A DNA stretch of 64,000 bases from Panopea generosa (lineage: Eukaryota; Mollusca; Bivalvia; Adapedonta; Hiatellidae): assembly GCA_029582155.1 (NCBI GenBank), contig CM055901.1:52023206-52087205 (forward strand), in the 5' to 3' direction. Shown piece by piece: positions 5,601-58,700 of the stretch (the stretch's first letter is position 1; each line of letters starts with the position of its first letter). The translations under genes were made by a program, and so were the position numbers. The notes beneath the pieces were generated by a model. That model was not told the origin of the DNA. It ran no database searches and was given only the letters and a program-made list of their open reading frames with translations.

Positions 5601-8600
5601 TCTTAATAGTTGACGTATCATGCTAAAGTTTTCAAAATATATCCCATATATATTTAATTTCAAATACAATAACACTATTGTGCATTGTATAATTGACATA
5701 AATAAGTTATGGCAAATGTCTACGAACTTTCTGATCCCCCCTCGTATGTTGGAAAACAAACATGGATACCGTTATGCTAGACACCTTACATTTAAACTGT
5801 ACATCAAATATTTTACTCTAGACACCATGCATTGAAACCTATATGCTGGAAAACAAACATGGATACCATTACGCTAGACACCTTACATTTAAACTGTACT
5901 ATCAAATATTTTATTCCAGACACCATGCATTATAACCTACATATGGACAATGTGCATCTAAAGATTATTGCTAGTCTTCATACATGTTAACCTTTATGCT
6001 AGACATCATTATATTCAAGGAATTATATAGAGAAGGAAAGGACATTTGATTGAGATTTTGTAAACGCTTGCGAATTCACGCAAAATCTCACTATATCTCG
6101 TTTTCAGTTATCTGAACTGCTATTCATCTCATGAACACAGATCAAAATTCTTACACTGCTAGAATGAAATTGTCATTTAAAGGATACCATTCTTGGAAAT
6201 TTGTGTTTAAAATTGTTGAAGTACTTGTGATTACAAAATGTGTATACTGCAGCTATAATAACGATAATTTAAGATAATTTTTCTTTCAAACCTCAATATC
6301 TTTATTATCGAATTCAAGATCAATTTGCAGTGATTGAAACATGTTTAAACATCTCAGATTACATACATCTTGCAGTTTATGTACAATAAATCAGTTAGCC
6401 TGTGAATTATGAATGATTAATCTGCAAACTTATGAGTCCTTCTTGTGCTGTTTCATCAATATTTAGTCAGGAGATGCCAGTTTCCTATCATTCTATACAA
6501 GTCCTTGTTATATTGAAGCCAGTATTCCATGTTTGTATAATTATCAAGGAAGTACTTCCATTTTGTTTTATTTCTGTTAACAGTTATTGCATTATCACTT
6601 GTTGGGTTCCTGTTGATAATCGCCATTCTCGTGGCCGTTATTCTTGTGAGGCAGAGAAGGAAGCAGAAGAGAGAGAAAGAGGAGAAGAAGAAGAATGAAG
6701 ACATGATGGAGATGAAACAGCCTCTCAATGACATAGATGTGGTGGCGATCGAGGACAATCGTCAGAACCAGAACTATCTAGCAAGACTGGATGAGTTCAG
6801 TATGGTATCTGCTACACTAGGAGGTATGAACCTGACTTGTCATTTAGGGAACAGCTTGAATGGTGATGTATCGGTGTATAAATCATCATATTGAGGGAGA
6901 TAAGCATTTTTAAGTTGCAAATTAAAATGTTTTGCCTTTGAAATTTGTTGAGTTAATCATTTTTCAAGAATAAACCTAAGTTTAATAGTCTTAGTGCAGG
7001 CTCTCAATTAAACTGCCAATATAACATTTTAAGTTGGTTAGATATTGCATAATAGGTTCTGTCAGTGAAAAACTGTGCAATAAAACTGTCAGGATTTATT
7101 CACTAAGGGACCATATTCACAACATATTAAAACATTTTAAAATCAGTTGTTTATTTCATTGTTTAAATTTGGTCCTTTGGATCAGCTCACCAAAACACAT
7201 TCTTGTGACATTTTTAAGAATACTGATGAACTGATTTCCAAAATTAAAGAATTTTATATTTTCCAGTTAAAAGATTTCAAAAGATACAAAATTTATATTT
7301 TTATTCCAAACTATGTATATGAACACCCCCATCTCTGCAAGTAACTGAATCAGTGGTGAGAGACAAATGACAATGAGGCACAATGTTGTATATCAGTCCT
7401 CATGGAGACTGGCTGAGTGGGGATTGGAATTCTTGACCCCTGTATTGATAGTCAGACACGCTACTGACTGAGCCAACCGAATCCAGCTAGAAATAGTTGT
7501 ACTAACTAAAAACAGTTTGAAAAATAAAAAGTAAGTTAACAAATTATAGGATATAAAGCATGATCAATTTAGTTAGTGACCAGAGACCATTTTGTTTTTA
7601 CTTGATTCATGTCACTAAATATTACTTAAGAAATAAATTAGACTTTATATCTAAAATTAAAAAAGAAAATTTTACTAACTTTCAAGTTCTGTGTCTGTTT
7701 TACAGCCCGACCTGTGAAGACTGATGGCATGACAACATTTAAACCCCCACCCAGTGAATCTTCATGCGCCTACTCCAGTGTGGTATGTATAAGCAAGGAA
7801 TAATCTGAATAATAATATATTTAAATGATACATCAGTGCGGTATGTATATAAATAAGGAACTTATCTGAATCAAAATTATATTTAAAGATTCTCCATTGT
7901 AGGTATGTATAGATAAGGAACTTCTCTGAATAAATATCATATTTAAAGACTTAATTTCTTGGAAAATTGATTTTCTCTTTATTTATTTTTCAACTTTTTC
8001 AAACACTATAAGAAGTTTTGTTTCTGTACAAGGTATAATGGCATTTCTCAACATCAGAAATTGACCACAAGAAGAGTCTTGAAACAAGCAAAACGCTTCA
8101 TATCTACGCAGAGGACTGCTCTTCATTCCAATCAAAGGTCCACAACCTGACAGTTTTATTCTACCTTACTGGATTTAATATTTATATATTTTGGAGAGTG
8201 TTTCTGAATGCATCCTGGAAGTGACCTACATGAGAGGACCCTAAATTTGACCTGCACGGAGAGGATTCTTTCAATCAGAAAGCAATAGAGGTTAAGCCAG
8301 TGTTCAAGTTTTTAAAGCAGGATACATTATCTTACATTACCTTATTCTTGTACACAGACAGACAGACAGACAGATGACAAAAGAGATAATAAATAATTGT
8401 CGTTTGTATTTCTTTACATATATTCTTGTCTATCTTCACCGATAATGGCAAATATCAGTGTCTATCCACACATATCCCTATTTACGCATTACTTGATCTT
8501 TCTACAGGCCCAGGACTCGGAAGAAGATGGTATAACAACCAATGAACACAGATTTTATAATCGTAAGAAACAACGGCCAGCTTCATCTATATCAGAGGTA

Positions 8601-18600: not shown

Positions 18601-19808
18601 GCACGGAGACTTTGTATAAGTTTTCGATCGATGTAAAACTAAATAAGTTCAAACAAACTATTTTATGCAATTGATTGTGTAAAGTAAGAAAGAGATCAAG
18701 TTATTTATTATAAAGAGGTCATAGCCATATCAATCAACTTTGATAAAAATACAAAGTTATGCAATTTAAGGGCTTTTTACTGTCCCTAACACAGTATAGT
18801 TTCCTCTTGCCCACATTTGAGTGCTGGTTTTGGATTTTATCTTCCAGTATGGCCATTGTTACTGATAAATGACTTCATAAATACAAATTAAATTCCATTT
18901 CTTTGTTAATACAACTCTCTTAAAGGAAGGGGGGGGTTTTAGCGGTCAGATAAAATGCAATATATATTAATGATGTTTATTGGTTGTCTCTGTTTCAACC
19001 TCGTTTTTTCGTCTTGCCCCATAATCCAGTATGGCAACCATTACATGCTAAAAATAAAATAATTTGAAATTATGAAATTTACCAGTTTATGGGTCAAACT
19101 TTCAGTGTAAAATATATTTTTTTTTTTTCATCTTAACATAGTTAACAAAAATTCTTACAAAGATATGTCCACAGACTTTTAACAATAATTTTCTAGCGGA
19201 AAAATGTATAAAATAAAAGATATTGTATAAATTATACCCCAAAAAAAACCATTTCATTCTCAATATATAGTTAACAGCCATAATTCCTTAAGAAAAAAAA
19301 AATTGTATAAACTTAAACTGATCAATTGTTTTTACAGAATCATGAGGACGATGCTTCAAATGATGCAGACAATGAATCAGATTCCCCCTCACCTCCCCCT
19401 CCCACTCACCACGTTAATGAATACAATGGGGACAGTGGCTACGAGGCAGAGTCTAAACCTGAGGAGGACGATGAAGAAAATGAAACTTTGATGAATAGAA
19501 GTTACCATGGTAATGGTAGTTATGAAGGGGAGAGTACTCCCCATTCACCAGACATTCATACGTACAATGCATATTCAGAGGGGACAACTCCGCCATCTCC
19601 AGAATCTAAAAATAGCTTCATGTCAGACAAAACTGATATTGTGTCTCCCACATTAAATTTGGACAAAGTTCCTCCAGAAAAAATGTCACCTACAACCCCA
19701 GACTCTAAAATAGTGACATACGGATTCCCTGCACCTGTGATAGATGATGGATCAGAGTTTCCTCCACACAAGTCCAGTATTATAACAAACATGGGAGACA
19801 ATACTTAG
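2528..19808 (+). CDS. 3' part of a gene for an unrecognised single-pass membrane protein (10 exons)
   Basis: I do not recognise the family. Exons read from splice sites: 2528-2685, 3174-3373, 4205-4382, 6584-6823, 7706-7782, 8508-8634, 9230-9309, 12892-12930, 17677-17772, 19338-19808 (stop TAG). From 3174 onward all phases join. The order is a short ectodomain remnant, a Thr/Pro-rich stalk (exons 2-3, with NST glycosylation sequons in FNSTGF and HNSTTT), one membrane helix (LIALSLVGFLLIIAILVAVI, exon 4), a stop-transfer run RQRRKQKREKEEKKK, then a cytoplasmic tail of about 300 residues rich in Asp/Glu, Ser and Pro with possible SH3-type motifs (PSPPPPTHH, NMLPPPEE). The topology is type I by the positive-inside rule. 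The 5' end is outside the window. The junction between the first two exons is out of phase, so a small exon may be missing or the first exon may be misassigned. It is the tail-to-tail neighbour of SPEF2. Confidence 0.7.
3548..3985. repeat. 96-bp tandem repeat, about 4.3 copies
   Basis: CTTGGTATCTACTGACATCA recurs at 3684, 3780, 3876 and 3971 (periods 96, 96, 95). Each unit also has TTATCAACATGATGTTTTCA. The first copy is diverged and internally duplicated. It lies in the intron between 3373 and 4205. Confidence 0.9.
4383..6583. other. intron of the plus-strand gene; one diverged 97-bp duplication
   Basis: No exon was recognised. GGAAAACAAACATGGATACC occurs at 5751 and 5848, marking a two-copy tandem duplication of about 97 bp. 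The rest is ordinary AT-rich intron. Confidence 0.6.
6584..6823 (+). CDS. transmembrane exon of the plus-strand gene
   Basis: The exon lies between TTAACAG and GAG|GTATGA, in phase with both neighbours (1 in, 1 out). It begins directly with about 22 hydrophobic residues, then a highly charged juxtamembrane stretch RQRRKQKREKEEKKKNED, then the proximal tail containing NQNYLARLDEFSMVSATLGG. Hydrophobic length and the flanking basic cluster give a confident single-pass helix with the C terminus in the cytoplasm. Confidence 0.8.
7324..7492 (-). mobile_element. SINE family A copy with tRNA-like head
   Basis: Minus-strand copy; the head at 7420-7492 reads in reverse as a tRNA-like sequence with B-box-like and A-box-like stretches (GACTGAGCCAACC on the plus strand is GGTTGGCTCAGTC reversed). 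It lacks the distal 3' part. Otherwise the intron 6824-7705 shows no feature. Confidence 0.75.
7783..9229. other. introns around exon 8508-8634
   Basis: Both introns (7783-8507, 8635-9229) are AT-rich. The first contains three diverged copies of a segment holding GTATGTATA and AAGGAACTT near the donor (7783-7935) and a short CAGA run at 8356-8374. Nothing else was recognised. Confidence 0.5.
9588..9662. repeat. CAGA and AT microsatellites
   Basis: A GACA/CAGA tetranucleotide run spans about 9588-9615 and a (TA)n run lies at 9645-9662, both in the intron after exon 9230-9309. Confidence 0.85.
9676..10285. repeat. 53-bp minisatellite, about 11 copies
   Basis: The unit includes GATAGATATCTCGGCCAAGT and AAACCTAAGTTACATGGTAA, with period 53. 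The first copies read CTCAGCC and later ones CTCGGCC. Two shorter variants carrying GATAGACATC and lacking about 6-8 bp recur at 10047 and 10207, suggesting duplication of a multi-unit block. Confidence 0.95.
10290..12120. other. intron without recognised genes
   Basis: AT-rich. About 10680-10765 resembles the 3' end of the SINE at 41985 (shares CTTTGCAATTGAGCTA). Open frames at 11029-11235 and 11446-11772 have intron-like composition and no splice context, so I do not call them genes. Confidence 0.5.
12225..12515 (+). mobile_element. SINE family B, one copy plus a partial second copy
   Basis: The head CTCCGTGACCGAGTGGTCTA is tRNA(Ser/Leu)-like (A box). The body has ACTGGATATACCATATATAA and TGTTGAAAATGGCATTA, then an A-rich tail to 12400. 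A second 5'-truncated copy follows at 12408-12515 (GGAAGGACTGTGGTTCTACT). Related copies lie at 22851-22945 and 36735-36990. Confidence 0.7.
13468..13665 (+). mobile_element. SINE family C, diverged copy
   Basis: The tRNA-like head (ACGGATAATCTAGTGGTAGT) is followed by GAGTCATACCAAATACTTTA, matching the better copy at 55666 (GGGTCATACCAAAGACTCTA). It directly precedes the 44-bp minisatellite. Confidence 0.6.
13710..16130. repeat. 44-bp minisatellite, about 55 copies
   Basis: The unit is GAGTTCATTCCCTGGCAGAG followed by TAAACCTTCCATGTGGGAGA and CTGG, period 44. Copies at the left are more diverged than those at 15400-16130, the usual sign of more recent amplification on one side. Open frames on both strands inside it are by-products of the repeat. 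It sits in the 4.7-kb intron between exons 12892-12930 and 17677-17772. Confidence 0.95.
17050..17200 (-). mobile_element. possible LINE 3' end
   Basis: Read on the minus strand this gives CATGAATTGAGTGAATAAAC, then a duplicated ACTATTGAAATGA, resembling a non-LTR retrotransposon 3' end with AATAAA and a short tandem tail. No coding part is attached. The remaining intron 16131-17676 shows nothing else. Confidence 0.3.
18160..18395. repeat. 75-bp tandem repeat, three copies
   Basis: TTGAACC occurs at 18171, 18246 and 18322; each unit has ATAATTATAGTGGTGTATGA and GTGTATCATATACTTT. The three copies are nearly identical, so the duplication is recent. It lies in the intron before the last exon. 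Confidence 0.9.
18505..18612 (+). mobile_element. tRNA-derived SINE fragment (family E)
   Basis: GTCGTGGGTAAGATCCCACG resembles a B-box region; AAGACACTTTATTGGCATAT then GCTTAGTACTTATTCTG matches 59515-59560. Family assignment is by these two copies only. Confidence 0.4.
19338..19808 (+). CDS. terminal coding exon, acidic Ser/Pro-rich tail
   Basis: This 471-bp exon follows TTTTTACAG and starts NHEDDASNDADNESDSPSPP. It is strongly acidic and rich in Ser-Pro and Thr-Pro pairs (ESTPHSPD, TTPPSPES, MSPTTPDS), which are candidate proline-directed phosphorylation sites, and ends ITNMGDNT then TAG. A polyA signal follows at 19942. Low complexity makes homology assignment hard; the tail is probably disordered. 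Confidence 0.8.
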   Translation, partial: NHEDDASNDADNESDSPSPPPPTHHVNEYNGDSGYEAESKPEEDDEENETLMNRSYHGNGSYEGESTPHSPDIHTYNAYSEGTTPPSPESKNSFMSDKTDIVSPTLNLDKVPPEKMSPTTPDSKIVTYGFPAPVIDDGSEFPPHKSSIITNMGDNT

Positions 19809-22408: not shown

Positions 22409-22740
22409 CTGAGCCAGACTTGGTTAGCTCAGTCGTTAGCATGTCTGACTATCAATCCAGGGGTTGTGAATTTGAATTCCACCCAGCCAGTCTCTGTGAT
22501 GATTGATATACTACAATGCATCTCATTGCCCTGCCAGTCTCTGTGATGATTGATATACTACAATGCATCTCATTGCCATTCATCTCTCACTGATGATTCA
22601 AGTGAGAAAGTTATCAGTTATTCATATAGATGGGTGTTGGGGTCCATGATAATCTTCCAGTATCCCAGGTAAATGTTGATTACATTAACTGATCATCCTT
22701 TAGCCCTCGATTGAATAAAAATGACACTAAATATTCAAAC
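22409..22740 (+). mobile_element. SINE family A, full-length with internal duplication
   Basis: The tRNA-like head has an A box in TGGTTAGCTCAGTCGTTAGC and a B-box-like GGTTGTGAATTTGAATTCC. The body shares CATTCATCTCTCAC, CTTCCAGTATCCCAGGTAAA, ACTGATCATC and a TAAAAATGACACTAAATATT 3' end with seven other copies here. A segment of about 44 bp starting GCCAGTCTCTGTGATGATTG is repeated in tandem inside the body. Confidence 0.85.
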
Positions 22741-29671: not shown

Positions 29672-32600
29672 TTAATCCATAGTTTTGGTGCTGTGTGCAT
29701 CCAGATTGTCTCCAGAAGAGAGAATATTCTTCAAATCCTGAAAATAAAACACAACATGTGTTAATTTAATCACTTGTATTGAGGAAATACACAAATATCA
29801 TAATATACAAAGAAATAAAAAGCCATATTTTACAATTAACATGTAATACGGGTAAACTGAAAAGTGAGCACAAAACAGAGCAGAAGAGCTGCGGATAAAG
29901 TCATAGTTGACCACTCATGCTAGAGGTTTTGGGTTCAAGTCTTAGCTCAACCTAATACTACTAAAAAAAACCCACTCCATACAGGTTCTACATAGGAAGG
30001 GGACTCGAAAGCAGGTCATAAGAGTGCTGAGTTTTCTTGGCAATAAATCTTAAATAAATTAGTTTTGAACTATGTACATCAACAAACATCTGCATGGAAC
30101 TATGTACATCAACAAATATTTGCATGGAACTATGTACATCAACAAATATTTGCACAGAACTATGTACATCAACAAATATTTGCACAGAACTATGTACATC
30201 AACAAACATCTGCATGGAACTATGTACATCAACAAATATTTGCATGGAACTATGTACATCAACAAATATTTGCACAGAACTATGTACATCAACAAATATC
30301 TGCATGGAACTATGTACATCAACAAAAATCTGCATGGAACTATGTACATCAACAATTATCTGCATGGAACTATGTACATCAACAAATATCTGCATGGTTA
30401 CTTCCAGGAAGAGCAACTGCAGAGAAAACAAGTTATTTCCAAATCCCTCGATGTATGACAAAGTTACAGAACAAACACAAGATAAGAGTACTTTTCATAT
30501 GTTAAGCCTCTAAGCGTGACCTTCACATTCAAGCTACTGATGAGTGTTACACGTGATGCACCATGTCATTGTGGTCCTTTATGAAATTTATAAATCCTTC
30601 CAATTGTAACGAAGTTATGGACAGAATAAAATTTCAGATAATCGCACAATATGCTGGGCCAACACTGCGGCTTCTATATGCCACCTTTTGGGGGAATAAT
30701 AAAAAGACCATTCACATATAAACTGTTCATATGAGCCACCAGGACTGGTTTGTAGCTAAAACAACAGGCATCTAAATAAATAATACTACAAAACTTACCA
30801 GGGCTTTGAAAGTCTGACATGCATGTACTATATCTTGTATGAGGGGGTGTTCTACAAGTATCTTAAATGGCACTGGGTCCAATGATTCATTGCCCAACTC
30901 CTGGTACACACTGGCAAGTCGCTCCTGAAATAGTGTACAACATGTTTATGAAACAATGTCCAAGCGTAAGATTGTATTAGAGAAAATAATTTACAATGCA
31001 TGATAAACATAGTATGAAATCCTTATGAATATGTAAAACTTTATCTTTAAACATAAATGGAAGTGCTTTTTAAATATTTAAGTGTTCTTGATACCTAATA
31101 ACTAGACATATTAGAAACAATAACTTCAAATTACTAAAAGATCATAATAAAATATAATGAAATACACTTTTACTGCATATTCAGACTAGAAATTTGTCCA
31201 TTGGATATGAATGCCGCCACTTAATTTACTAGTAAACTACCAAAAAATGAAAATGGAAAGGGTGCTCCTAGAAAATTGTCAAATATCAAACTGGACCAGT
31301 ATTTTAAAATTACACATGTACACACTAAACATGAGAGGTAGCATTTAATGTCCCTTCAACATTTCTTGGAATGGTGGGGGCATAAATAAGGTATAACATA
31401 CATGTCTATGACGGTCAAACCACTTGTTAAACTTCTTTGATTTAATGGCAAGACATTTGTAACAATTCTTGAGGAACATGGAATTTAATTCCTAGATGAA
31501 AAATAGAAACAATTAGTATGTGGTCTTTTGTTTTTGTAAAGAACCTCACCAACTTATTCTGAAAGATACAGAGCATATATACAAGCAGACAGACAGACAA
31601 ACATACTCTAGATGTAGCATCTTCAGGATCTGCAGTGACAGAGAATCTGTGACTGTCTCCCTTAGCACTCTCTCCATGGTGCAGGGTACGGTACAGGGCT
31701 TCCAGTGGAACTACAGCATCTATAGCCTCGGATGGGATGTCCTCTGGTGGTGGGGGTGGAGTAATGTCCTCTGGATCATCTGGGATGTCCGGGCTAAGGA
31801 AGCATGGAGAGAAAACACATGATATTAGATGTTTGTGTATCAGATGTTTGTGTATCAGATGTTTGTGTATCAGATGTTCGTGTACCAGCTGTTTGTGTAC
31901 CAGATGTTCATGGACCAGATTTTTGTGTACCAGATGTTCGTGTACCAGATGTTAATGTATCAGATGTTCATGTATCACAAGTTTATGTATCAGGTGTTCA
32001 GGTATCAGATGGTCATGTATCAGATGTTCATATATCAAATGTTCATGTATCAGATGTTCATGCAGATGTTCATGTATCAGATGTTCATGTACCAGATGTT
32101 CATGTATCAAATGTTTATGTATAAGATGTTCATTTACCAGATGTTCATCTACCAGATATTCATGTATCAGATGTTCGTGTACCAGATGTTCGTGTACCAG
32201 ATATTCATGTATCAGATGTTCTTGTATCAGATGTTCATGTACCAGATGTTTGTGTACCAGATGTTCATGAATCAGGTATCAGATGTTCATGTATCAGATG
32301 TTCATGTAACAGATATTCATGTATCAGATGTTCTATCATATCTATATTAATTATTTCACTACTTATTATCATGCACTACTTGGTGTTACAGATAGTACAA
32401 ATCTTAGTATTTCATGTAAATTTAAATTATTTCACACAATTTACCTGTTGATGACAGAGTCTGCTTTAGTTATGGGTTTCAGAAGTCTTGGCATATGTGT
32501 GCCTGATGCCACACTTAAAGCCCTCATGAAGCCCTCCTGTGCCTGCCCAGATGCACTGAAGTACAGCAGCTGTATAGAGAAAAAACAACTATTATACACG

Positions 32601-33140
32601 TTATTATATATTGGTTTAATCAAACGACTGGAAATGCATCTCCAAAAACTTACAATATAAATATACAGTTAAACATGTCTTAAGCAGCCAGTCAAGTAAA
32701 GGAGCAAAAGTGGTATTTTAAGACAGGTAGTTGCCTGATACAGGTTAATTTACTCTGAAAGCATAGAAATGGGAAAAAGAAAATATTGTTCCTTAAGACA
32801 GGTGGCTACTTAATAGAGGTGACTGCTTAAACAGGTTTGACTGTATGTACAACTAGCATAAAACCAGTGAGTGAGAAAAATACATTTAAAGTAACCAATT
32901 CATTCATCACTATAAATTGTATATACATAATCATCTTCGATTAGTTACATTTTTATTACATTTATAACTGTGTCCATCATTTCCAACATATGTAGATAAA
33001 ATACTTACCATTCCTATGTAATCCAGGACAGCTGGTGTTCTGTTGTGGTCAGCAAAAATATCAAACAGGGCTGCCTTCAGCATTGCAAGACGGTCAAATT
33101 TGAAACCTTCATTGTCAATTGTACTGAACCACAACTCCAT
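29672..33140 (-). CDS. SPEF2: SPEF2 final exons and stop
   Basis: Exons 33009-33140 (MELWFSTIDNEGFKFDRLAM, LDYIGM), 32445-32569 (LLYFSASGQAQEGFMRALSV), 31607-31793 (VVPLEALYRTLHHGESAKGD), 30799-30924 (ERLASVYQELGNESLDPVPF, EHPLIQDIVHACQTFKAL) and 29672-29737 (DLKNILSSGDNLDAHSTKTM, then D and TAA). These match the last part of SPEF2 (LLYFA, YRALSV, KHPFIQDL). An optional in-frame 90-bp exon at 31402-31491 may lie between the third and fourth of these. Confidence 0.9.
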
Positions 33141-36100
33141 CTGCAACAGAAAAACAAGGGAGTCTATAAACTTTGCCATTACACAACTCTCGGTACTCTG
33201 CGTTTGTAACTATTTTTTTTACACCATCTAAGGTACCAGAACACTTTTAACTTTATTAGTTTGCACCATAACACATTGTTAGGAGTGAAAATAAGAATTG
33301 ACTTAGAGCCAAAAATGTCAACCCAAATCTGGCTGAAAGCTACTCTCAGAATAACCTATTTGTTAATGTTGTCATTGAAGTGAAGCACAAGCTAGGTCTC
33401 GAAATACATGAAAACAAAACAAAACTGATTTAAAACAATTATACAAATTTCACTACAATATCTATCATAAAATTCGAAGTGATATTTTCATAAAATATAT
33501 ATATAAATTTCAAATTCAAATTGATCAGTTATTCAATAAATTAGGGCTGCTATTATATATATATCAACTGTTAACCAGAGAGACCCAGTCACCTACCCTG
33601 TCATAGAGATACCCAGTCCCCTACCTTGACATAGAGACCTAGTCATCTATCCTATCATAGAGAGACCCAGTCCCCTACCCTGTCATAGAGATACCCAGTC
33701 CCCTACCCTGTCATATAGATACCCAGTTCCCTACCTTATGACATAGAGCCCCAGTCACCTACCCTGTCATAGAAAAACCCAATCCCCTACCTCGACATAG
33801 AGACCTAGTCATCTATCCTATCATAGAGAGACCCAGGCACCTACCCTATCATAGAGGTACCCAGTCCCCTACCTCATGACATAAAAAACCAGTCACCTAC
33901 CCTGTCATAGAGATACCCAGTCCCCTACCCTATCATAGAGAGATCCAGTCCCCTACCCTATCATAGAGATACCCAGTCCCCTACCTCATGACATAGATAC
34001 CCAGTCATCTATCCTATCATAGAAAGACCCGGTCCCCTACCTCGACATAGAGACCTAGCCATCTATCCTATCATAGAGAGACCCAGGCACCTACCCTATC
34101 ATAGAGGTACCCAGTCCCCTACCTCATGACATAAAAACCCAGTCACCTACCCTGTCATAGAGATACCCAGTCCCCTACTCTATCATAGATAGACCCAGTC
34201 CCCTACCCTATCATAGAGATACCCAGTCCCCTACCTCATGACATAGAGACCCAGTCATCTATCCTATCATAGAGGTACCCAGTCCCCTACCTCATGACAT
34301 AAAAACCCAGTCACCTACCCTATCATAGAGGTACCCAGTCCCCTACCTCATGACATAAAAACCCAGTCACCTACCCTATCATAGAGGTACCCAGTCCCCT
34401 ACCTCATGACATAAAAACCCAGTCACTTACCCTATGACAGAGATACCCAGTCACCTACCATATGACAGAGATACCCAGTCACCTACCCTATGACAGAGAG
34501 ACCCAGTCATCTACCCTATGACAGAGAGACCCAGTCACCTACCCTATGACAGAGAAACCCAGTCACCTAACCTATGACAGAGAGACCCAGTCATGTACCC
34601 TATGACAGAGATTCCCAGTCACCTACCCTATGACAGATAAACCCAGTCACTTACCCTATGACAGAGAGACCCAGTCATCTACCCTATGACAGAGAGACCC
34701 AGTCACCTACCCTATGACAGAGAGACCAAGTCATCTACCCTATGACAGAGAGACCAAGTCATCTACCCTATGACAGAGAGACCCAGTCACCTACCCTATG
34801 ACAGAGAGACCCAGTCACCTACCCTAAGACAGAGAGATCCAGTTACCTACCCTATCATACTGTTCACGAGTGACAAATCCTGTAGTTTTCTGGTCCATCT
34901 CGCGGAACTTTGCCAGTGTCTCCAGAAGTTCAGTCTGTGTTGGCATGGGGATGGGATGTGCCAGGGTGATCAGGAAGCGACGCCAATCTACATACTCATT
35001 GTCGGACGATGCTCCCGTCGCTATATCTTGTATCTGTCAAGTACACAGATGGTGATCAGGTTTGTTTATATAATATAATCAAATATGGGCTAGAAGACAA
35101 TGCTATTTTCTGTTACTGTCTTTCCAAAAATATACAACCTATTTTAATAAAACAGTATATCAATATCTGAGGGAAAACTTGAATCATAATATAACAGGTT
35201 TGCTCTTAAAGATGGAATCTTGCACAAGGTATTATTTTATTTTGATTTTAATGATGCACTAGTGCTTCAGTGTTAACATGAGGTCATGACCTTTCTTTTT
35301 CATGATCGAACCTCACAAATCCTCTGACAATGATCAGCCTCTTTGGATATACTTATAATTGATTTATCAGAAATATCATAAAATGAAAAGTATTATTTTG
35401 TTAAGTTTTGGCCATAATTGATGTCAATATGTTAAACAGTTTTAAATAAAAGAGGTAAATTATATTTCCAAGACAGTCCCATCTGTATATACATTACATA
35501 TACATCAATTCTATTGATTTCTGTTTCGGACATTTGATCTTTATTCTCTTAAAAAAATTGAAAGAAATACAAATAGTTATAAAACCATTCTAAACACTTA
35601 ATGTCATTTATGGTGGAATATTAAATTGGTAGAGGTTGACCTCAGATATGTGGATTCCTCAGATATGTGGATCACCGCCTTTCCAAAATGAAACGGCAGA
35701 CATTCTCAAATGAACTCTGGGTAAGAACAACATTATCATAGTGGATCTACACATGGCAGGAGTAACCGAGTCACATGTTTGAATTATGAAATATACCTGC
35801 TGCTGGGAAATATTGAGCCAAATGTCGGGTAACTGTTCCATCCCATGGGTAACACCCACCATGTTCTCAAATGTCTCCACAAATGACTTGTTAGACATCA
35901 CTCCTGTTGGAGCGGTAGTTTTGAACTGAAATGTAACACAACAAAACAATGGAAAAATAATTTTAACACTAGGAAACAATGTTACATTTAAATGTAGCAA
36001 AAATTAATACTTGCTAAATATGTCAGCAAAATGGAGAAATGAATCTTTATAATCTGTTACTACTCAGGTGAAATATTGACTAAATATGTGTATAACAAGA

Positions 36101-43700: not shown

Positions 43701-46700
43701 TTTGTTGGAACATAATTTTTCGGATATAAAAAGCCGTTTATGGAGCACTTAGGAAAAATAGTGATGTTAATAGGGAATAATATATAGGGAAATTAACCAA
43801 AAAAAAATTGTGACTTGTTCCCAGATTTGAACCCAGATCATCCATTTCATAATCCACAGACAAGACCACTGCCACATGTAGGAATATTACAAGATGAGCC
43901 ATGATAATCCCAAGAAATTTTCAAACGTTTACAGATTATAGCTGAGATGATATATTAAATCATTTATGTTATTCCACAGATCATGTCTAATTCATAAACC
44001 AGCAATAATAGCAAGTTTAAATACATGTTTTTCAACAAAAAACAACAGTATTTTGAATCAGATATGATCCAGATAGCCGCAATTTATGCTAAATATTACA
44101 ATTCTACTGGTTATTAGGGTAGAAAATACTGGTTATGCCACTTTAAGTTGTTAGTGATACCATAACTCTAATGTTTCAGTTTATCAGAATCATACTTGAA
44201 TAAATAATTTGAAAATTTCACAAGTTTAAACTGTTATAAAACCAATCAGTACTTACAATGGTACCGATATTAGTGACACCAGACTGGAAAGCATCAAATA
44301 TGAGTTTCTCATCAGGATCTGTCGGTGGTACGGGACTTTCGTAGCCATCATCTTTCTTTTTCTTGTCCTTTGTCTTGGCAGCTGCAGCAGCCTTCTGATC
44401 TAGATCTGCTGATGTGGGTCGTCGAGGAACAAGGGGTATTCTGAGGGAAATACAATTTTTCCTTTATTAGTTTGTTAAATAATATATGCCAAGAGAATAC
44501 AGTGATAATATATGCCAAGAGAATACAGTGATAATATATGCCAAGAGAATACAGTGGTAATATATGCCGTGATAATATATGCCAAGATAATACATTGGTA
44601 ATATATGCTGAAAGAATACAGTGATAATATGCCAAGAGAATACAGTGATAATATATGCCAAGAGAATACAGTGATAATATATGCTGAAAGAATATAGTTA
44701 TAATATATGCCAAGAGAATACAGTGATAATATATGCCGAGAGAATACAGTGATTATATATATATGCCGAGAGAATACAGTGAAAATATATGCCGAGAGAA
44801 TACAGTGATTATATATATATGCCGAGAGAATACAGTGATAATATATGTCGAGAGAATACAGTGATTATATATATATATGCCGAGAGAATACAGTGATAAT
44901 ATATGCTGAGAGAATACATTGATAATATATGCCAAGAAAAATAAGTGATAATATATGCCGAGAGAATACAGTGATAATATTTATGCTGAGAGAATACAGT
45001 GATAATATATGCTGACTAAATACAGTGATAATATATGCAAAAAAAATACAGTGATAATATATGCTGAGAGAATACAGTGATAATATATATGCTGAGAGAA
45101 TACAGTGATAATATATGCCGAGAGAATACAGTGATAATATATATGCTGAGAGAATACAGTCATGATATATGCTGAGAGAATACAGTGATAATATATGCCA
45201 AGAGAATACAGTGATAATATATGCTGAGAGAATACAGTGATAATATATGCCAAGAGAATACAGTGATAATATATGCTGAGAGAATACAGTGATAATATAT
45301 GCTGAGAGAATACAGTGATAATATATGCCGAGAGAATACAGTGATAATAAATGTCGAGAGAATACAATGATAATATATGCCAAGAGAATACAGTGACAAT
45401 ATATGCTGAGCGATTACAGTGATAATATATGCTGAGAGAATACAGTGATAATCATATGCCAAGAGAATACAGTGATAATATATGCTGAGAAAATACAGTG
45501 ACAATATATATCACACAATTAAAGTGCCATAACTGTGCATAAAAAGCTCTTCCCACAGAGAAGCTAGCAAAAATATCTTAAAACAACCAACTTAAACATT
45601 ATTAAAATCCAACATTGTATTCAAAATGATAAATTTATGAAAATTATAAAAGTAAATGCATAAGATTGCCAAGTTGTGAATACTGTAATAACAGTAACAA
45701 CAATGGTGAAGAGTTAACAATCACCAAATGATGTTACAACAGTAACAACAATGGTGAAGAGTAAACAATCATAAAATGATGTAACAATAGTAACAACAAC
45801 TGTGAAGAGTAAACAATCATCAAATGTAACAACAGTAAAAACAACTGTGAAGAAAAACAATCAGCAAATGCCTCATATTGTCAGTCTTCTGTCTTTCCTT
45901 CTTCTCTTTATCATCGGATCTGAAACATACCCAAAAACAGGCTCTCCACATGTTCAACCATGTTATTTATCTTAGTACAGATTTTTGAGTGAACTGACTG
46001 ATGGCTGATGTAGATAAATGCCCCATGTCCATGTGTGACAAGCATCATAATGAACTGCATGTGGGTAATTTGTTGAGCTGGTGGGGTGGGGTGTGCGGGT
46101 TTCATTAAACACCTTGAGGCTGAGATTTTTCACAACTCACAAAACTTAAATTCGGTAAAATGATTTCTTGAACTCATTACATATCTTATGACCTTCCACA
46201 TTTGAGGTCGGAACAAATCCAAACTCATTGGTCAAAGATTACTGGTACATGCAAATTGAGTTAAAAATTTGAGTTGATGAAAATGTTTATCAAACTGGGT
46301 TAGATTGATTTATTGAATATTTAGCGTCATTTTTATGTTATTAAGGGCTAACAGATGACCAGTTAGCATAACCACTGTTTCCTTGGATCCTAAAAGGTTA
46401 AACAGTACTCAAGCACACCCCATCTCCGCAAGTAATTGATAACTTTCCTACCTGAATCAGCAGTGAGAGACGAATGATAATGAGACACAATGTCATATAT
46501 CAATCATCACGAAGATAGTTACAGGGCAGGGATTGGAACTTCCAACCCCTGGATTAATAGTCAAACATGTTACCGACTCATTACTGAGCTAATCAGGGCT
46601 CGGCAAACTGAGATAGAAGTAGAGACACTTTTACTTGCTAAATAATCTAAAATCATTGGAATTATCATATGGACATTTACCTTGAACTGTACTATAAATT

Positions 46701-52700: not shown

Positions 52701-55700
52701 AACATACATGAGGCATAGTGAGCCATGGCATGCACACCACTACCAAGGATAACACCAAATAGAGTCAAGTTCTCATTTCCATTGTGGTATTTTTATATGT
52801 GCAACTAGACCTCACACTGATCATTCCCAGCAAGTTTCAACAAAATCCAACCACAGACGTTTGAGAAGTTCTCCAGACAAGATTTTAAGACAAGGCGGAT
52901 GAACAGAAAGAACAAGAACAATATTTATACCAGTGAAGGGAGAGACAAAATTAAAATGGCATTGTTTAACATTATAAACACTTATATTGTCTATTAGGCA
53001 TATTTTACTACAGTTGAATCTAAAGAAAATTACAACAAAATTTTGTTTTTTGTGAAATTTTCAATTATATTTTAAATACCTCTTAACAGTATGGTTGCAT
53101 ACTGCAACTAGTGATAAACCTGATTTGGAAACGAAAGTAATCAAAGTGTGATCATTTTCACTCAATACATTTGTGTATACTTCCTTGAGAAATGAGACAC
53201 ATCCTGCATAAATGCATAATCGAAAATATTTGATTTGACTGTCATTGCTTCTAAATATACATGTAATAACAAATAATTTCTACTTCTCAGAAGATTGTCA
53301 TTTCTTTCCTGTCAGTAATGAATCTGTCAAAATCTTAAATTTTGTAATACTAAACTGATTTACATTATTATATCAAAATAATTGAAGTCAATACAATAAA
53401 TATTCTCTCAAAAAGTGATTAATTACTAAAATTGATTATTTTTATAATTTACTTTAAAACATACTTTTATCTGGAAAATGTTCTCTTTTATTATACGTTA
53501 TCAAATCCAAATATCTTCTAAAGTCAGATCAATATTTAGCAAATGAGTTTAAGTGCTTTGATCCTCTATCAAACATCCCTCCATTCCTCCCCAAACCATT
53601 AACCCTCAAATCCTGGGTCTGATGCCCTACCATACAATCTCCCAATCCTGTGTCTGATCTTCTACCAAACCATCCTCCAATCCTAGGTCAGATCCCCTAC
53701 CATACAATCCCCCAATCCTGTGTCTGATCCTCTACCATACAATCCCCCAATCCTGTGTCTGATCACCTACCAAACCATCCTCCAATCCTGGGTCAGATCC
53801 TCTACCATACAATCCCCCAATCCTGTGTCTGATCACCTACCAAACCATCCTCCAATCCTGGGTCAGATCCTCTACCATACAATCCCCCAATCTTGTGTCT
53901 GATCACCAACCAAACCATCCTCCAATCCTGGGTCAGATCCTCTACCATACAATCCCCCAATCCTGTGTCTGATCACCTACCAAACCATCCTCCAATCCTG
54001 GATCAGATCCCCTACCATACAATCCCCCAATCCTGTGTCTGATCACCTATCAAACCATCCTCCAATCCTGGGTCAGATCGTCTACCATACAATCCCCACC
54101 TACCATACAATCCCCCAATCCTGTGTCTGATCACCTACCATACAATCTCCCAATCCTGTGTCTGATCACCTACCATACAATCTCCCAATCCTGTGTCTGA
54201 TCACCTACCATACAATCTCCCAATCCTGTGTCTGATCACCTACCATACAATCTCCCAATCCTGTGTCTGATCACCTACCATACAATCTCCCAATCCTGTG
54301 TCTGTTCACCTACCATACAATCTCCCAATCCTGGGTCTGATCACCTACCAAACCATTCTCCAATCCTGGGTCATATTCTCTACCATACAATCCCCCAATC
54401 CGGTGCCTGATCACCAAACCATCCTCCAATCCTGGGTCAGATCCCCTACCCAACAATACCAAAATCAAAGTAATATCTCCTTTCCAGCAACCCTCCAATT
54501 CTGAATCTGAAAGCCTGACCAGCAACTCTCCAATTCTGAATCTGAAAGCCTGGCCAACAGCCCTCCAATCCTGGTCATGATCCACACCCAACAACCCTCA
54601 AATTCTGAATCTGAAAACCTACCCAACAAGCCACAAATCTTGGGTCTGATCCCCTACCCATCAACCCTCCAATCCTGGGTCTGATCCCTTACCCATCAAC
54701 CCTCCAATCCTGGGTCTGATCCCTTACCCATCAACCCTAGGTCTGATCCCCTACCCATCAACCCTCCAATCCTGGGTCTGATCCCTTACCCATCAACCCT
54801 CCAATCCTGGGTCTGATCCCATACCCATCAACCCTAGGCCTGATTCCCTTCCAAGCTACCCTCCAATCCTGGGTCTGATCCCTACAAAATGACCTCCCAA
54901 TCCTAGGCATGATCACCTCTGCAATCAAGGTTGTTAACCCCTATCCAACAACCCTCCAATTCTGGGTTTGAAGGTCCACCCAACAACTCTCCAATTGATC
55001 TCATAGATTATATCCTCAGCTTTCCTAGGAAGTGATAATAAGCTGAAAATGGTTTCAACCATTGATATTTTTTTAAAGAAGATAGTTGCATATAACTAAA
55101 ATATGATATTCACAAAATGTTGAGTTTCAGAAGAGACATCCAAGTTACCAGATGAAATAAGTAAACCATGCACTGCATTTTGAAAGTAGAAACGTGTCCA
55201 AAGGACATGGGTGACCCCGCTATATTATTTTACCGAAAAATAAGGTTAGAAAGAGGCCATAACTCCAGTAAAATTTTAATTACATTAGACCCATAAAAAG
55301 AAAAATTATTGGAAATAATTATTTCACCAAAATTAATTTGAAAAGGGGCCATAACTACTGTAACATTTGACAGACATTGACAAATACCAAACTTAACCTG
55401 TATTTTATAGTAATGCATCTATGCATGAAATATTTATTGAATACAAAAACAATTTCTGAAGTTATCGATCGGAATTCAATATTTTGTCTTGGACAGACAG
55501 ATGGTCGCACAAACAGAGACAATGCCAATTCACATTTTCATCTCCCAATAGTGGGGGCATAAAAAGAAGGAGATGATACCTCGATGCAAGGTAAAATGGA
55601 GATGACACAACATGAATACCAGATATGGATATTTACAGAATTATTATTTAACTCTACATTTAGAGACCGCAGCGTGGTCTAGTGGTAGAGTGTCAGCCTC

Positions 55701-58700
55701 GCGTGCGGAAGGCTGTGGGTCCGATCCCCAGCAGGGTCATACCAAAGACTCTAAAAACGATACTAGAAGCTTCCTTGCTTGACACTCAGCATTTAGAGGA
55801 AAGTTCTAGGTCTGGTCAGCCCAGTGTCAGTATAATGTGACGGGGAAGGGTATCATCTATGTGTCTGCTGCATAATACTCCAGTGTGACAGTGCTCAGAA
55901 TACTGTTTCAAGTAGACACCATTCCAATATGACTGAAAAATTGTTGAAAGCGATGCTAAACCCTATACAGCAACAACAACTCTACATTTATCCCATTGAC
56001 CAATTAATTAATTAATGATGTCCATATTTAACATTAATACTGGAATGTTACAACAAACAAGAGAGAAATAGTATGAAAATAGTATAAACAAAAGGCTCTC
56101 CTTTTTTAACTGTAAATTTCTGTTGAAAATATGTAAACAAAACAGTCGATGTAAAAGTTATAGAAAAAGAAGAAAGAAAAAGGAATGAAATTATAAAGAA
56201 AAAGATCTCTATAGCACAAAACACGCTGGCACTTCAATAATGAAATAAATCTTTCTGTAAAAAAAATATTCTCCCAACACCTTGTAAAACTAAATTGTTT
56301 GTATACACTCACTGTTGTCAACTTGCAGTAGATGTTCATCTACATGTATAAAGTATAGATTACAGACTTTATAATGAAAACTAACACTTTTATATAAAAA
56401 CATTTCCAGAAAAAAAAATGTGTACTACCATAATGTAATTCTGTTATGAACTAGAAAAAATAATTTTGTGATAATACAGAACAACTTAAAATTACATCAG
56501 CATTTTACTTTTTATATTATTGCAGGATTGAATGTGAAGTAGTCAAAAAGCTTTTTTTTCTTTTCAACATTATATTATATTGTTATATTTGTTATTTTAT
56601 AGTAACAAAAACTTAATACAGGACTGACTCTGTTTAAAACCTATTTTATTGCCATATAAACCAAATATTACAATAATATATTATGCATATAAATCAAATA
56701 CAATATGAAAAGCAGGTCCACCGCCAAAACTGTAATTTATTTGTTTAAGTATTATACAGAGACAGAGCAAATACTTATCACCCATTGGTCAATAATTGGA
56801 GAGTTACCAAGTTATTCCCATAATGTGATTTTATCATTTTTAAACTTAGCAATGATTCTGTATTTTTAAAAATGAAAATATGTACATGTATGAGTAAGTA
56901 AATATGATAGTCTTTTCAAATTAGTCATTATGGTGTTTACAAATGGAACAAATTGTTGTTGTTTTCGTATAACTGTCTATGGTCTTGATCTATCTAAAGC
57001 ATTTGAACTGGTTAGATCATAGTTTACTGCTTGAAGAACTAAATGTATACCATTTCCATAAAGATGTTCAAAATTGGTATGAATCCTACTTATGTGAACG
57101 CTAAAAAAAGTTTCAATGTCTGGTACACTTTCAGAAAGTAAATCAGTAATATATGGTGTACCTAAAGGATCTGTTTTAGACCCACTTCTTTTTATTATCT
57201 TTATCAATGATATACCTTTATGCACTCAGTATTAAAAAATAAACATGCTTGCTGATGACTCCTCTATCACTTTATCTGGTAATTCAATATCAGACATCAC
57301 CAAATCTCTTAATAATGATTTAATAAATGTCCAACAATGGTGTAATAATAACTTGATGACCATAAATACTTCAAAATCCAAAGCAATATTTATAGCCTCT
57401 CATCCATAAGCAACTGCTATTCAGATCAGCCAGCTGAGCACTTAAAAACAGGAGATGAGACTATTGAATTTACCAGTAGTGAAAAACTTCTGAAGGTAAC
57501 AATTGACAACACACTTACATGGACTCAACAAGTTGAAAACACCCTAAGAAATGCAATTCCTTATTAAACTTACAGTTACTTGGCAGAATAAAATACTATT
57601 TATCAATACCTATTAGGAAATTATTTTACAATTCTTACATACTTCCTCATGTAGACTATTGCTGCACAATATGGGGAAATCGCAACTCTGACCTATCTGA
57701 CAACATATTGAAATTTCAAAAACATGCTGCAAGACTTAGTCTTGAAAAAGACATTGATACACCATCTGAAACATTATTTAATGATCTAAAATGGATGAAA
57801 TTCCGTGAAAAAGTAGATTATAAAAAGGCTATTTAATGTTCAAGATCATCAACAACTTGGCCCAAGAGTATTTGCAAAATAGTTTTACCCATAAACCAAA
57901 TATACATTCTAAATATCTACGCTCACAATCAAATAATTCTCTATATGTACCGAAACAAAAGTTAAAAACATAATGCAAAACTCTTATATATTCTGGATCC
58001 AAAATCTTGAATTCCCTTCTTAACTATCACAAAAATGCTTCTTTGGTTCAAGAATTTAAGAGATATTATATAACATTTAAATATAAAAGTCCCCTGTCAA
58101 AACAAATATAAATTGTCATTGCCTTACAAAACATTAAACTTGTATCCTTCATTGCAGTCAGTTGATTCTTAAATCATTGAATGTAACATTGACTGTCTAA
58201 ATATATTCTGTAGTGAACTCATCATTTTCGAAGTGTAAATTTTACATTATAATACTATCATGCCTTTCCTTTGAAATATATTATTGAGTTAATTAAATAA
58301 ACAATATTAATTGTTAATTGAAAATATACATCACTAATTGAATATTTCAACAAAAATAATTCACTTTTTTGTTTATAAGTTTCCAAATTGTATCAATTCT
58401 GTTGTTTAATTTTGTTGTATATATTTTGTTATTACTTTGTTAACATGTTTATAATAGAGGACCACAGGGAAGATTGGAGAATGTTCCAACTGTGTTTCCT
58501 CTTTAAATAAAGAATTTATTATTATAATTATTATTATGTAAAAATTATGATATCAAGGTTTGAAACACTTCACATATTTGCTTTATGTCGCCTGTTTTGT
58601 CCAAGAATAGTCAAGTAGATCCTGTCAATGAGTTCACATGGAAATCAAAACAAACTAGACTCAGACTAAGGCTGAACATACTGAGGGGTAATGAGTGATT

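Follow-up and report, generated by a model that had tools for sequence, protein, structure and literature searches.

A 28-bp minisatellite continuous with the exon 16 donor of SPEF2 in Panopea generosa carries many near-perfect copies of that donor

Introduction

How does an intron accommodate dozens of copies of its own splice donor, and where do such copies come from? This question is raised by the sperm-tail gene SPEF2 of the bivalve Panopea generosa, in which a tandem array begins inside an exon, runs through the donor of this exon and continues far into the following intron. We analysed a stretch of 64,000 nucleotides that contains this locus (contig CM055901.1, positions 52,023,206 to 52,087,205 of the forward strand), referred to as the window in the following, and all coordinates given below count from its first letter. 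A first-pass annotation had proposed that the array was built from the exon end and its donor, and that either the splice site was captured by tandem duplication and tolerated or the choice of the first copy is enforced. As detailed below, its description of the locus was good, with some overcounting, and its interpretation is partly supported. What is read from the DNA itself comprises the array and the way it overlaps exon and donor, the gene model, the scores of the decoy donors and the stop codon that follows the genuine donor.

Results

The gene lies on the minus strand, where our model runs from 62813 to 29672 and comprises 21 exons; the position at which exon 8 begins is provisional, and further exons may lie between exons 7 and 8 and before exon 1. 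The proposed identity of the gene as SPEF2 was confirmed, as the joined exon cores align with SPEF2 of PDB entry 9ijj (chain 4M) with an E value of 5.3e-110 and the Pfam domain SPEF2_C is recognized. Joining exons 9-21 gives one continuous frame of 648 residues, closed by a stop codon, in which SPEF2_C covers residues 322-508. The end of exon 16 corresponds to residue 437, i.e. it falls inside SPEF2_C, and thus truncation at this point would cut the domain.

Exon 16 (34851..35033, minus strand; gene model, alignment with 9ijj_4M and relatives) is 183 nt long, is entered and left in phase 0 and ends with ...TATGATAGG. It is followed by intron 16, which spans 1,710 nt from 34850 to 33141, and by exon 17 (33009..33140, minus strand), whose acceptor in the gene model is TTGCAG|ATGGAG. 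At the junction of the two exons SPEF2 of PDB entry 9ijj aligns across YDR|MELW without a gap (there EQYKQ|AGLWF). Moreover, in an alignment that includes eight of the nine relatives found, YDR|M is present at this position in the two closest ones, P0002 (Dreissena polymorpha, 72%) and P0003, the junction residues varying in the remaining aligned relatives. Based on the joining of the frames, the shared YDR|M and the gap-free alignment we regard 34851|34850 as a real donor and consider the exon bases that border the array to be old. The real donor, GTAGGTAAC, is itself a GTNNGT doublet with its two sites 4 nt apart.

In a TRF run over the whole window the array extends from 33577 to 34859 with a period of 28, 46.0 copies, 78% matches and 1% indels. 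It is continuous with the genuine donor of exon 16 (34850/34851) and its edge at 34859 lies nine bases inside the exon, exactly as the first-pass annotation had described. The exon-edge copy (34842..34859, minus strand) combines the last nine exon bases, TATGATAGG, with the genuine donor GTAGGT(AAC), and on the minus, i.e. transcript, strand it is followed in strict register by 45 downstream copies, which make up the intronic part of the minisatellite (33577..34850). The unit had been given as 28-29 bp; a length of 28 bp was found in 42 of the 45 downstream copies, whereas the remaining three measure 26 bp and none 29 bp.

The intronic part is composed of two blocks. The exon-proximal block (34424..34843, minus strand) contains 15 similar 28-bp copies with a mean pairwise difference of 2.42 of 28 positions and the majority unit ACTGGGTCTCTCTGTCATAGGGTAGGTG. 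The distal block (33590..34423, minus strand), composed of 27 28-mers and three 26-mers, is more diverged, its 28-mers having a mean pairwise difference of 5.74 of 28, and shows a two-copy alternation together with a higher-order period of nine copies, or about 250 bp (mean of 3.44 at lag 9). In total, 32 of the 45 downstream copies have distinct sequences. A 20-base pattern of the unit, allowing up to three mismatches, matches 38 times in the window where 0.00 matches are expected, and all of these lie within 33578-34851. As this pattern finds no copy elsewhere in the window, a dispersed satellite was rejected as source of the array. Likewise, 41-44 stop codons per frame downstream of the donor rule out that the array is coding sequence.

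Although the first-pass annotation had counted about 45 decoy donors, which is indeed the number of downstream copies, only about 39 of these keep a GT in register; five of the other six carry AT and one has a shifted GT. Its statement that nearly every unit repeats ATAGG|GTAGGT did not hold, since this sequence occurs exactly at just 10 places and the shorter 9-mer AGG|GTAGGT at 15, the real donor being included in both numbers. Thus, there are 14 exact copies of the real 9-mer, among them the first and second decoys (34822 and 34794). Outside exon 16 its final bases, TATGATAGG, are found at 12 further places, all of them in the distal block, which makes 13 occurrences with the exon included.

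We scored all donors with a matrix built from the gene's other 19 donors, by which the real donor reaches 6.8. The decoys do not fall far below this value, a check proposed beforehand by the first-pass annotation: the score of the real donor is equalled or exceeded by 25 of the 45 downstream copies and, among the 128 GTs in the array region, by 26 in addition to the real one. With an approximate human matrix, 27 of the 128 GTs besides the real donor reach its score or exceed it. Two AGG|GTAAGT copies, at 34654 and 34430, clearly outscore it by the gene matrix (10.7 vs 6.8). By contrast, the real donor ranks first of the 128 GTs in duplex energy with the U1 5' end, having -11.3 kcal/mol vs -10.8 kcal/mol for the four runners-up (two exact copies and two GTAAGT copies) and -10.5 kcal/mol for the other twelve exact 9-mer copies. 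This margin over the best rivals amounts to just 0.5-0.8 kcal/mol and, as regards the exact copies, stems from the two bases following the 9-mer. Sequence thus gives the real donor a slight edge at most and, if this donor is used exclusively, position must do most of the work.

An RNA structure that exposes the real donor alone was considered as well and is unsupported, the predicted local opening probability of the real donor being 0.008 vs a decoy median of 0.009 (rank 22 of 40). On the transcript strand two stretches of the distal array (33600-34450) are predicted to fold more tightly than shuffled sequences (z -5.2 and -3.5; antisense -2.7 and -0.1) and the exon-proximal block is not (z 0.7).

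To follow the outcome of decoy use each of the 128 GTs was spliced in silico to exon 17. Only the first, i.e. the real, donor yields the full-length product of 648 residues; the products of the remaining GTs comprise 445 residues in 125 cases, 446 in one and 464 in one, in line with the earlier prediction that use of any decoy would truncate the protein. Translation past the real donor gives VGNWISLS, and the TAG that had been noted after these eight codons is present. This codon lies just upstream of the first in-register decoy junction and is thus contained in every product of a downstream copy. Transcripts with such a premature stop codon are expected to undergo decay.

Special conservation of the decoy donors was rejected. 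In each of the three sets analysed the donor columns are no less variable than the remainder of the unit: mean entropies are 0.50 vs 0.43 bits in the 42 28-mers, where 22 of the 28 circular shifts have an entropy as low as that of the donor core or lower, 0.28 vs 0.17 bits in the proximal and 0.48 vs 0.44 bits in the distal copies.

The overlap with an exon edge has to be judged against the abundance of arrays in this gene. When the eight larger arrays in the SPEF2 part were placed at random, at least one overlapped an exon edge in 11% of 5,000 trials, and with all 15 arrays of period at least 10 this value rose to 19%. The overlap by itself is thus a modest surprise, and it is the number of near-perfect donors brought along with it that is unusual. 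Three arrays, starting at 31818, 33577 and 44479, are located at an exon edge or no more than 40 nt away from one (out of eight larger ones and 15 in all). For the eight larger arrays this is matched by 1.2-1.6% of random placements; the 40-nt cut-off was picked after seeing the data, however, and the set of eight left out seven smaller TRF arrays. Once all 15 arrays were counted 7.6% of placements matched, and the hint of a clustering of arrays at exon edges failed.

Beyond the donor, many units also contain an acceptor-like stretch, which the first-pass annotation had overlooked. With a matrix based on 20 sites GGTCTCTCTGTCATAG|G has an acceptor score of 7.7, the real acceptors of the gene ranging from 0.2 to 10.3 with a median of 5.6, and 22 of the 45 copies carry such a site at or above this median. 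Of 20,000 mononucleotide shuffles of the consensus unit, 6.0% reached its donor score and 5.7% its acceptor score, and only 0.45% reached the two together. AGGT occurs 32 times in the repeated register on the transcript strand, 31 of these sites lying beyond the first copy, where a potential acceptor directly abuts a potential donor (AG|GT) in the form of a ratchet point. Nine of the AGGT sites read GAG|GTAGGG, with acceptor scores of 1.9-5.7 and a donor score of 7.0.

Scanning 19 arrays of the window on both strands does not indicate that its arrays are donor-like in general. High densities of both donors and acceptors are confined to 33577-34850 on the minus strand. The array at 53609-54883 contains weak donors on this strand (9.4 per kb at a score of at least 5, none of at least 6.84), and the short array at 7771-7949 contains candidate donors and acceptors on the plus strand, each at 16.8 per kb, corresponding to about three each. 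The former is a 35-bp array in another SPEF2 intron, 2.2 kb away from the nearest exon of the model, and its transcript-strand unit also holds GGTAGGTGA.

Several other elements were observed in the window. A 15-bp array (31818-32333), separated by 24 nt from the exon 19 acceptor downstream of it, holds many copies of the branch-site-like motif CTRAY: 17 instances are found in 31793-32333, i.e. 31 per kb vs 3.3 per kb in the rest of the minus strand. Its exon-nearest copy, CTAAT, lies about 31 nt before exon 19 and is a plausible branch site, so a second splice signal may be arrayed in SPEF2. A 26-bp array (44479-45509) starts 38 nt upstream of the exon 10 acceptor. Judged by eye, ORF pieces at 57236-57833 (plus strand) resemble the remains of a reverse-transcriptase retroelement in a SPEF2 intron, and 22422-22600 looks like the head of a tRNA-derived SINE with a short direct repeat behind it. 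Neither one of the reverse-transcriptase-like pieces nor the ORF at 19317-19805 has a Pfam match at E 0.001, and ARAGORN finds no tRNA gene in the window.

Discussion

We consider it likely that the array is a neutral minisatellite that was born by duplication of the exon edge and is tolerated since the first donor normally wins. A segment across the 3' end of exon 16, made up of the last nine exon and the first 19 intron bases, would have been duplicated in tandem and would then have grown by slippage or unequal exchange into the 46-copy minisatellite of intron 16. Duplication toward the intron would leave the original exon and its donor intact as the first copy, and thus the mRNA would not reveal the change provided that the spliceosome chooses this copy, which is the earliest donor transcribed after exon 16. 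The downstream copies would act as decoys that remain mostly unused; use of one of them would add about 28n nt, run into the TAG after eight codons and yield a transcript bound for decay. Duplication from the exon, dominance of the first donor and neutrality are what we infer from the arrangement of the locus. An origin from the exon edge is supported by the 28-bp register running through the donor, by the phase 0 junction, by the 12 recurrences of the exon end in the array and by the lack of copies elsewhere in the window, and the exon is the likelier source as its end encodes YDR, just as in the two closest relatives. The variability of the donor columns, the top rank of the real donor in U1 duplex energy and its being the sole GT to yield the full protein also speak for this reading. 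On the other hand, scores alone scarcely explain why the first copy should win, the real donor does not stand out in predicted RNA folding and the 15 exon-adjacent copies lack the TATGATAGG of the exon. The lower divergence of these copies and the recurrence of the exon end in the distal block suggest that an old array has kept close to the sequence of the exon and that a variant next to the exon expanded more recently, but the weaker match of the exon-nearest copies can also count against an origin from the exon.

This weaker match is shared ground with a different history, in which a minisatellite that already existed expanded up to the exon edge, or converted it, without being derived from the exon. 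The window is rich in arrays (62 overlapping TRF rows), three of the eight larger arrays in the SPEF2 part come within 40 nt of an exon edge and the distal copies match the last nine exon bases better than the 15 copies next to the exon. Nevertheless, these nine bases match in phase, no copies were found elsewhere in the window and the YDR shared with the two closest relatives makes the exon bases look ancestral, and hence we regard a non-exonic source as rather improbable. An artefact of assembly or collapse at the repeat is extremely improbable, although the assembled copy number may contain an error: 32 of the 45 downstream copies are distinct, they are organized on two levels and the unique flanks join into an in-frame gene model. 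The decoys might, moreover, have a function. In a leaky or regulated array of alternative donors, as in human IFI6, the first few copies would be used at a real rate, their use would lower SPEF2 output via nonsense-mediated decay, and the number and identity of the copies would tune expression. Decoys 34822 and 34794 with the 9-mer of the real donor, the AGG|GTAAGT copies that the matrix rates stronger and the GTNNGT doublets, found at 12 or more decoys as well as at the real donor, are compatible with this scenario. Furthermore, two downstream repeat units of IFI6 act as donors, as stated in the excerpt of PMC4526556, and, according to the summary of PMC4267661, decay may be the route by which the majority of regulated GYNNGY tandem donors take effect. 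The donor core is not conserved relative to the rest of the unit, however, and regulation by leaky splicing is in our opinion unlikely, if the least unlikely of the alternatives to neutral duplication.

The acceptor-like stretches raise the question whether the copies might be spliced recursively, i.e. whether dual-specific AG|GT copies serve as acceptor and then as donor in a stepwise removal of the intron. Joining the real donor to such a copy would recreate a donor at the exact exon edge and would be silent in the final mRNA. The 31 AGGT sites beyond the first copy, nine GAG|GTAGGG sites with both kinds of score, the 22 copies whose acceptor-like site reaches the median of the real acceptors or exceeds it and the 0.45% of shuffles that match the consensus unit in both scores argue for such a scheme, and human introns spliced at AGGT dual sites are described as enriched in tandem-repeat genes (PMC10809524). 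Intron 16, on the other hand, is with its 1,710 nt not very long, unlike introns typical of recursive splicing; in flies, recursive sites have been reported in most very long introns (>40 kb; PMC6110457, as abstracted). Moreover, the acceptor matrix is based on 20 sites, the candidate branch site GTGAC in many units was judged by eye only and of the 92 AGs that the decoy part contains 61 are followed by something other than GT, so that their use from the real donor would presumably alter the mRNA. We thus hold recursive splicing to be very unlikely. A working splice ratchet, in which AG|GT copies would trim the array step by step and restore the donor at the true edge, the growing array would silence its own errors and copy number would set the speed and fidelity of splicing, is a speculation to which we give hardly any credence.

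Whatever its use, the array can be compared with systems known from other organisms. IFI6 (6-16, G1P3) reportedly contains a minisatellite that provides multiple splice donor sites, as the title of Turri, Cuin and Porter 1995 (Nucleic Acids Res 23:1854) puts it. As is characteristic of donor-bearing minisatellites of this kind, the SPEF2 units bear donors equal or close to the genuine one and form an array continuous with the donor of the exon, and the 46 copies of 28 bp lie inside the unit range of 10-100 bp. Unlike in IFI6, where the unit is 12 bp long and matches the donor consensus, the SPEF2 unit is 28 bp long, spans nine exon bases and often includes an acceptor-like stretch, and any downstream donor truncates the protein. 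By its anatomy the SPEF2 array would thus belong with the donor-bearing minisatellites of the IFI6 type.

Other parallels are more distant. Human segmental-duplication genes contain variable internal tandem repeats at exon-intron boundaries, with units of 30 bp on average and 27 intron modifications with new splicing patterns (PMC2812944). These share the location of the minisatellite at an exon-intron boundary with SPEF2, but they consist of about four units and create new introns from exon sequence, as opposed to about 45 intronic copies in SPEF2. UBC and VCX3A have tandem dual-specific splice sites with AGGT (PMC10809524), similar to the AGGT-bearing tandem copies in SPEF2 that are potentially donor or acceptor. 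The UBC repeat is coding and 228 nt long, a multiple of three, whereas the SPEF2 repeat of 28 nt is intronic and non-coding, is no multiple of three and does not keep the frame. Tandem duplication of a short AGGT-bearing segment is described to make new pairs of splice sites, e.g. from 24-bp AGGT repeats in fission yeast (PMC4974935). Although a short AGGT segment was presumably duplicated in tandem in SPEF2, too, the array lies within a single intron, which it lengthens with the frame kept, and the gene model shows no new intron inside a former exon. The minisatellite CeRep25B, found near alternative exons of C. elegans, is scattered across many genes and contains oligomers with a regulatory role (PMC4039745); like the SPEF2 array it is an intronic minisatellite tied to splicing signals, but the SPEF2 unit copies one donor and occupies a single place in the window. 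Finally, GYNNGY tandem donors come as pairs (PMC4267661, summary), and the real SPEF2 donor is such a doublet with sites 4 nt apart, the pair being, in contrast, repeated through the array. Use of the repeated units was demonstrated for IFI6, the segmental-duplication repeats have transcript support and UBC yields RT-PCR ladders of splicing products, whereas the SPEF2 copies are described here from DNA sequence. Among the matches listed in a search of open-licence literature (titles and beginnings of abstracts) there was no molluscan parallel. Taken together, the oddity of this locus is real, but it is of a kind already known from human genes.

As random placement alone gives exon-edge overlap in 11-19% of trials in SPEF2, the locus suggests that in array-rich genomes like this one minisatellites may capture splice signals fairly often. 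The array would be more interesting if RNA showed that its copies are used. In any case, with 14 exact copies of the 9-mer in series behind the genuine donor, which alone leads to the full protein, SPEF2 of P. generosa constitutes a natural test of donor choice, in which read counts per copy would measure how far position outweighs sequence.
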